A stretch of 64,000 nucleotides of DNA from positions 1 to 64,000 of the forward strand of contig NCEM01000006.1 of assembly GCA_002280725.1 (NCBI GenBank), read 5' to 3'. Source of the DNA: Alphaproteobacteria bacterium 32-64-14. Lineage in GTDB: Bacteria > Pseudomonadota > Alphaproteobacteria > Caulobacterales > Hyphomonadaceae. The notes beneath the pieces are model-generated. The model saw only the letters and a list, made by a program, of their open reading frames with translations, searched no databases and was not told the DNA's origin. Positions 31,416 to 41,716 of this stretch are shown piece by piece. A program made the position numbers and the translations under genes. Positions within the stretch are counted from its first letter, which is position 1; every line of letters starts with the position of its first letter.

Positions 31416-31531
31416 GGTTTAGCCGCGCCCGGCCGCAAGTCTGCTGCGTGAAATGTGGCAGGAAGAAAACTTCACGTGCGCTCTCAAGCGCTTGCGGAAA
31501 ATCGGCTGTCGGAAACAGCGTTGCGTTTTCC

Positions 31532-31557
31532 CCGGGTGGTCACACCCGGCGTATACT
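31532..31557 (+). promoter_or_regulatory. Perfect dyad next to a TATACT box, candidate promoter
   Basis: CCGGGTG (31532-31538) and CACCCGG (31543-31549) form a 7-bp perfect dyad around GTCA. TATACT (31552-31557), a good -10 hexamer, begins 3 bases later. No convincing -35 is seen at the usual distance, which fits a regulator-dependent start. Transcription would begin near 31564, just before the candidate RNA at 31575. Confidence 0.4.
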
Positions 31558-31574
31558 CCCGTCATCGCAATCGC

Positions 31575-31723
31575 ATGGAGGGCGGCTGTACACTGTCCAT
31601 ACGGCGCGGCGGCGATGCGGGCGGGGCAACCTGCTCGCGGGGACGCGGGCGAAAGCCGCACCCGGACCATAGACTGCGGACCACGGACGCCACGCGGATA
31701 ACACCGCGTCCCCAGCCCTCCAT
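31575..31723 (+). ncRNA. Candidate structured RNA (unknown class; 6S-like size)
   Basis: A perfect 9-bp closing stem pairs ATGGAGGGC (31575-31583) with GCCCTCCAT (31715-31723). Inside are three local hairpins: a 9-bp stem with a GCAA tetraloop (31617-31638), a short stem with a GAAA tetraloop (31645-31659), and a 6-bp stem around ATAACA (31692-31709). Two GNRA loops inside one closed domain are unusual for random spacer. A TATACT box lies 18 bases upstream. It could be a free small RNA or the leader of the dehydrogenase gene at 31864. RNase P, SRP and tmRNA core motifs are absent. The spacer on both sides shows no gene. Confidence 0.4.
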
Positions 31724-31863
31724 CGTCTTCAGGAGGCCAGACGACAGCATCCCGGGGCGGCGCAGGCTGGCTCCGCGGCAAAGCTGCGTCCACGGCCCGG
31801 CGCTTCCGCTCACCGCCATCCCGGGATAGAAGCGCCGCACCGGATTTTCCTGCGGGTTTGTCG

Positions 31864-40972: not shown

Positions 40973-41716
40973 CTAGAACCGCGCCACGTTATAGAACAGC
41001 GAGAAGTCGACCGGCAGGGCGTTGCGGATATACTGGCGAACGAACTGGTTTTCGTCTGCAATTGCACTGCGCGTCACATAGACAACGTCGAAGCGCCGAA
41101 GAGGGCCGATGTCGTAGAGCGATTGGCGGGCGAGCCCGTTGCGTACATCCACAACGCGCGTCATCAGCTCGCCGCCCGGCTTGCGCCGCATGACGATCAC
41201 CCGCGTCGGGCTGCCTTCCTCGGTCCAGCCACCGGCCAGAAGAATGGCCTGCAGCACATCGATCTCGCCCGGCATCTCGAACACGCCGGGTTGTTTCACC
41301 TCGCCGCCGACGAAGACCTTCTGCGATCCGAATTCCAGCGGCGTGATGACCACGGACGGGTCGCGCAGCTCGTTGGCGTAGATCTCTTCGACGTTCTCCT
41401 GCAACTCACGCGTTGTCGAGCCGCTCGCCATCAGGGGGCCGATCGTGGGCAGGGTGACACGGCCGTCTGGTGCAATGGTCAGCTCGGCTGAAAGTTCCGG
41501 CGCCGTGCGCACGTCCACCCGGAACTTGTCGCCGGGATAGAAGCGGTAGAACTGATCCTCCACCCGCCATTCTGGATAGGGCGTCATGGCAAAATCGGGA
41601 GATTGCGCCGGCAGGGGATCGCTCATGCACCCGGCTGGCAGCACGCAAAGCGCCGCCAGGGCAGCCAGGCCGGCCGCCTTCGCCTGATTCAGGGCGGAAG
41701 GACACAGTAGCGACAT
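40973..41716 (-). CDS. Wza-like polysaccharide export lipoprotein (locus 2)
   Basis: A 247-residue lipoprotein with signal peptide and lipobox PAGC (Cys30). A Poly_export domain (YRFYPGDKFRVDVRTAPELS) and SLBB segments (KVFVGGEVKQPGVFEMPGE) follow. It forms the periplasmic/outer-membrane exit for a polysaccharide. It is divergent from the Wzz-like gene at 41801, with 84 bases between them. It is longer than the locus 1 Wza-like protein and has a C-terminal helical tail (QYIRNALPVDFSLFYNVARF). Confidence 0.92.
   Translation of the reverse strand: MSLLCPSALNQAKAAGLAALAALCVLPAGCMSDPLPAQSPDFAMTPYPEWRVEDQFYRFYPGDKFRVDVRTAPELSAELTIAPDGRVTLPTIGPLMASGSTTRELQENVEEIYANELRDPSVVITPLEFGSQKVFVGGEVKQPGVFEMPGEIDVLQAILLAGGWTEEGSPTRVIVMRRKPGGELMTRVVDVRNGLARQSLYDIGPLRRFDVVYVTRSAIADENQFVRQYIRNALPVDFSLFYNVARF

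Follow-up and report, generated by a model that had tools for sequence, protein, structure and literature searches.

The window analysed here, a stretch of 64,000 nucleotides from Alphaproteobacteria bacterium 32-64-14 (assembly GCA_002280725.1, contig NCEM01000006.1, positions 1 to 64,000), carries at 31563-31723 on the + strand an RNA that homologous copies and covariation identify as a short member of a multicopy family. All parts described below lie on this strand. The 5' strand of helix P1, CATCGCAATCGC (31563-31574), pairs with GCGGCGGCGATG (31606-31617). Within the P1 loop lies the 5' strand of P2, ATGGAGGGC (31575-31583), whose partner GCCCTCCAT (31715-31723) is a perfect 9-bp match located past P5 and P4, and this layout is that of an H-type pseudoknot. 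Inside the fold, hairpin P3 (31585-31605, GCTG 31585-31588 paired with CGGC 31602-31605) is stacked within P1, P5 comes next and the P4 arm is last. P5 is formed by CGGGCGGG-GCAA-CCTGCTCG (31618-31637). The P4 arm (31639-31713) consists of an outer helix, GGGGACGCGG (31639-31648) with CCGCGTCCCC (31704-31713), an inner helix (31656-31659 with 31694-31697) and an apical loop with CGGAC repeats (31660-31693). In the window, as in other short forms, this loop carries CGGACTA/CGAACCA repeats in 7-nt steps, which are kept in the short forms of genomes G007 and G013 and are absent from long forms.

The closing stem, the GCAA-capped hairpin and a TATACT box had already been noticed in a sequence-only reading of the window, and all three are present and recur in other copies. 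The same reading had proposed a GAAA-capped hairpin (GGCGAAAGCC, around 31648-31657) as part of the domain. Other copies have GCGATCCGC or similar at this place, and the hairpin competes with P4, which is found in every copy. A third hairpin (31724-31745) and an upstream perfect dyad, CCCGGGTG..CACCCGG, are likewise not retained in most other copies. The reading had overlooked helices P1, P3 and P4, and also that the fold is a pseudoknot and the RNA multicopy. Downstream of P2 follows a variable 3' tail (31724-31830). It includes GACAGCA (31743-31749), a recurring motif, and, as a candidate terminator, GC-rich inverted repeats (at 31749-31762/31814-31827 and elsewhere). No U-tract terminator was found in the window tail, so the 3' end of the RNA is uncertain.

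Upstream of the RNA, a conserved putative promoter region (31446-31551) shows 79% identity to the regions preceding RNAs of a second class, class B, on contigs C65 and C15 of the same genome. It contains a TCTCAA box (31482-31487) that is kept at about -67 in related copies; a TTTCAA/TCTCAA-like box near this position occurs in 53 of 90 upstream regions and in 14% of shuffled ones, a count that is not independent as the copies are related. The TATACT box (31552-31557) is a -10-like hexamer 5 nt 5' of P1, at the same distance in aligned copies, and the spacing from such hexamers to P1 is 5-7 nt across copies. Transcription would be expected to start at or just 5' of P1. A TTGACA -35 element is not recognisable at the window promoter. 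In some copies the -10 box takes the form GCTACAATC, which presumably resembles the Caulobacter housekeeping -10 and which we treat as a lead only.

The class B RNAs, whose P2 reads GAGGGAGG/CCTCCCTC, sit behind a related upstream region also in G007 (L123 and L124). Three contigs of the window genome, C62, C15 and C65, end inside class B copies (L127, L128 and L129), and near-identical class B repeats probably broke the assembly at these three ends. At a further contig end of this genome (L130, C50, approximately 41346-41484), a similar promoter with a CCCGGGT..ACCCGG dyad stands before a different sequence, possibly a further RNA class.

Folding energy at the site is only mildly unusual (z = -1.96, with 8 of 200 shuffles equally stable). 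Taken alone this is weak evidence, and it is the comparative evidence that decides for a structured RNA. In alignment A5, comprising 28 sequences from two families with both long and short forms, 94.7% of cells are paired and 31 of 54 pairs show two-sided changes. Its covariation score of 0.350 compares with at most 0.102 when the partners are slid and was reached by none of 500 shuffles. The 72 distinct 5' domains of alignment A4, which were aligned to the model and are hence somewhat favoured, score 0.359 against at most 0.088 in slid controls, and the 18 short forms of alignment A3 score 0.169 against at most 0.046. By helix, two-sided changes affect 8 of 12 P1 pairs (72 distinct sequences) and three of four P3 pairs, all six pairs of P5 covary when long and short forms are compared, and P4 is paired in 96-100% of cells, with G-C/A-U swaps in Caulobacteraceae copies. 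P2 is nearly invariant within the main class; compensated variants exist as GGAGAGC/GCTCTCC in L253 and L259, GAGAGGGC/GCCCTCTC in L244 and GAAGGGCG/CGCCCTTC in G023, in addition to the class B pair given above. The compensatory base changes expected of a structured noncoding RNA gene are therefore found, and the alignments show that such mutations maintain the predicted fold across families. Matched changes keep the helices paired in three bacterial families, so the RNA itself is clearly under selection.

Over the span P1 to P2, class A RNAs occur in short forms of 148-178 nt and, among those collected, long forms of 263-489 nt; distant relatives have about 300-430 nt. When long and short forms were given together to RNAalifold with no structure supplied, P1, P4 and P5 were recovered, with P5 closing the whole central domain. 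This domain is missing from the window form, where P5 is instead the hairpin with the GCAA loop, and a GNRA loop, read by eye, caps P5 in 15 of 18 short forms. The short form thus looks like the long RNA minus its central domain, with the remaining stem capped by a GNRA tetraloop. Since the long form occurs in all three families, we infer that it is ancestral. Since the central domain can be missing with P5 capped in this way, it may be dispensable or specialised.

Sixty relatives searched together with the window genome gave many copies. R1, a covariance model built on the 5' domain, gave 107 matches in 13 of 105 Hyphomonadaceae genomes and none in the other 92. Twelve of the carriers belong to the 15 genomes of the window's own genus, with 1-16 copies each and at least five in the window genome; the one carrier outside the genus is the complete genome G023. 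In a sample of the order Caulobacterales, 34 of 398 genomes, from 5 of 59 genera, had matches, among them G261 (WRPF01), labelled Caulobacteraceae. Weak matches in the complete genomes G389 and G331, of a third family (f2), are read as genuine copies; they have P1 GTCTCGTCGC/GCGGCGAGAGC, P2 TGGAGGGCT/AGCCCTCCA and promoter regions in common. A scan with a 3' pattern returned 55 loci, nearly all in metagenome-assembled genomes labelled Hyphomonadaceae, Caulobacteraceae or Alphaproteobacteria, and one labelled Bradyrhizobium, a label that a binning error may explain. Plasmid and phage records gave no match with the queries used, and viral contigs none to three exact patterns.

Two of the G023 copies, of 372 nt, are near-identical. 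Their 8 differences partly compensate one another within the 3' hairpin, and upstream they have only about 55 nt in common. The third copy of this genome (L183, L184 and L269 being the three) is diverged and shorter. G001 and G005 carry copies at syntenic positions, some of them decayed through internal deletions.

In the loci read, the genes flanking the copies vary, the RNA lies in either orientation relative to them, and no transposase is seen as a constant neighbour. At the window site the flanking genes are 456 nt apart, compared with 74-161 nt for the same pair in G004, G005, G007, G009, G010 and G013, and the two of these spacers that were read, in G007 and G004, hold no trace of the RNA. 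Many copies of G007 and G013 occupy matching slots. The occupants can differ, being class B in one species and class A in the other at two slots, and long and short forms at two. In one slot (G007 C7 and G013 C12; L026 compared with L218) the two species have the RNA in opposite orientations between collinear flanking genes. In a second, the copy on contig C73 of the window genome is inverted relative to those of G013 and G007 (L231 compared with L227 and L068), again between collinear genes. Such exchange would be accounted for by gene conversion between copies and likewise by their independent insertion into favoured spacers. REP-like palindromes (TCTGGACCGCCGGGC...) adjoin some copies, as in the flanks of L231 and L218.

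Comparison of the copies shows a common unit composed of the upstream region, a -10 box, the predicted P1/P2 pseudoknot core with P3, P5, the P4 arm and a tail. On these comparative data, the locus is very probably a short-form copy from a new family of self-standing noncoding RNA genes that are dispersed in Caulobacterales genomes. The suggestion of a new small RNA made from the window alone is borne out to this extent by homologues, by covariation and by the lack of an Rfam match. Rfam 15 at the gathering threshold matched no family in the window or in 22 copy-bearing loci. Three long-form loci gave no match at E values up to 1, and a relaxed search at the site returned five matches only, all at chance level (E 0.97-8.7). 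A 6S-type RNA, also considered in the sequence-only reading, would share the similar size and the long closed structure, but there is no gathering match, and a separate 6S gene is present in 14 of the 15 genomes tested, including that of the window, which makes an assignment to 6S RNA or to a different known family very improbable. Hardly more credible is the regulatory leader that the reading also offered, acting in cis on the 3-hydroxyisobutyrate-dehydrogenase-like gene at 31858/31864. The RNA does lie on the strand of this gene, about 140 nt upstream, yet in the six relatives named above the two genes are adjacent with no RNA between them, so that the conserved position upstream of a gene that marks a riboswitch or cis leader is not seen there, and other copies precede unrelated genes or run antisense to them. 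The two to four GGA repeats in the P4 apical loop of short forms could suggest a CsrA sponge; this reading, like that of a guide RNA for a TnpB-type nuclease, is very doubtful. CsrA was found in none of 14 genomes and the TnpB/Cas12f zinc-ribbon domain in none of 15, with profiles that found their targets in control genomes, and long forms are without the GGA array.

A rival of far greater weight, which we hold to be slightly less than an even prospect, is a non-autonomous mobile or repeat element, a cassette resembling a MITE, in which the RNA or DNA fold would be conserved because it helps the element itself to spread. The 1-16 dispersed copies per genome with variable orientation, the empty window site in relatives, the inversions between species at two slots and the patchy distribution with some decayed copies speak for it, and comparable motifs have been classed as candidate mobile or repeat sequences (PMC11109978). 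Against it stand the many slots common to different species, the conserved promoter box and -10 spacing, the lack of a match among the plasmid, phage and viral-contig sequences queried and of a transposase as a constant neighbour at the loci read. Terminal inverted repeats and a target duplication were not evident in three copies, for which the unit ends are approximate. For the 2.3-kb long-form locus of G001 (L167), comparison with relatives did not yield a clean filled/empty pair, and the G005 copy (L179) differs from G001 by a 221-bp deletion through the element, with no precise excision seen. The patchy distribution, decayed copies and weak promoter and terminator signs fit a mobile or repeat element no worse than they fit a host gene. 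From the sequence comparisons, we consider the choice between a host-maintained RNA and a self-serving mobile cassette to be near even and lean slightly to the former.

The copies have no fixed neighbour gene, which suggests that the RNA works in trans and probably forms the structured core of an RNA-protein particle. New copies may originate in intergenic slots as cassettes of promoter, RNA and tail and may be homogenised by recombination, which would account for one slot differing between related species in the class or orientation of its RNA. More broadly, fixed slots, recombining and sometimes inverted classes (A short, A long and B) and related specialised promoter regions could point to an order-wide class of large pseudoknot RNAs that behave as exchangeable cassettes, either a paralogous RNA-protein system or RNA-based mobile elements of a new kind. 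We put this forward tentatively, as a proposal falling a little short of an even chance.

Caulobacterales includes Caulobacter, a model for the cell cycle, and this RNA class appears to be uncatalogued there: no matching description was found in the open-access literature on multicopy or structured RNAs of Caulobacterales, Hyphomonadaceae and Phenylobacterium. The class combines many copies per genome with strong proof that its fold is under selection. The complete genomes among the carriers suggest cultured strains, which should allow tests of expression, of protein partners and of deletion phenotypes. The class also provides an example of a large RNA domain that is absent with its stem closed by a GNRA tetraloop, and of dispersed RNA genes that appear to swap at fixed sites.

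Among known systems, the strand order P1a-P2a-P3-P1b-P4-P2b is what we take to be the topology of HDV-like ribozymes, and the interlock of P1 and P2 with P3 and P4 between them is found here as well. In contrast to these ribozymes, P1 has 12 bp compared with about 7, and J4/2 has 0-2 nt in aligned copies, leaving no space for the catalytic C-containing strand. In addition, the 5' end of P1 coincides with the expected transcription start, with nothing left to cleave, and we rejected this assignment on P1 length and J4/2 despite the fitting helix order. The 6S RNA (RF00013) is comparable as a stable RNA of this size with a closed long-range structure, but differs in fold and sequence; its gathering score was not reached by the covariance model at the site, and the true 6S gene lies at a separate locus of the genome (C90:12933-13092). 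OLE, ROOL and GOLLD RNAs, a type marked by homo-oligomeric assembly, resemble the family in having a large intricate fold, their own gene and a poorly understood function (PMC12286853); ROOL contains pseudoknots, and phages and prophages are where ROOL and GOLLD typically occur (PMC12286853). Unlike these, the Caulobacterales RNA is smaller (160-430 nt), has no Rfam match to any of them and is present in many dispersed chromosomal copies, while phage and viral collections gave no match to the queries used. Many copies per genome and inconsistent orientation to genes are the features of candidate mobile or repeat sequences such as MRSC-65-2 (PMC11109978), with which the family has both in common; it differs from MRSC-65-2 by its own conserved promoter region, by a large covarying pseudoknot and, at the loci read, by the lack of a constant transposase neighbour. 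In style, the nearest kinds are thus the OLE, ROOL and GOLLD RNAs (PMC12286853) together with these mobile or repeat candidates (PMC11109978).
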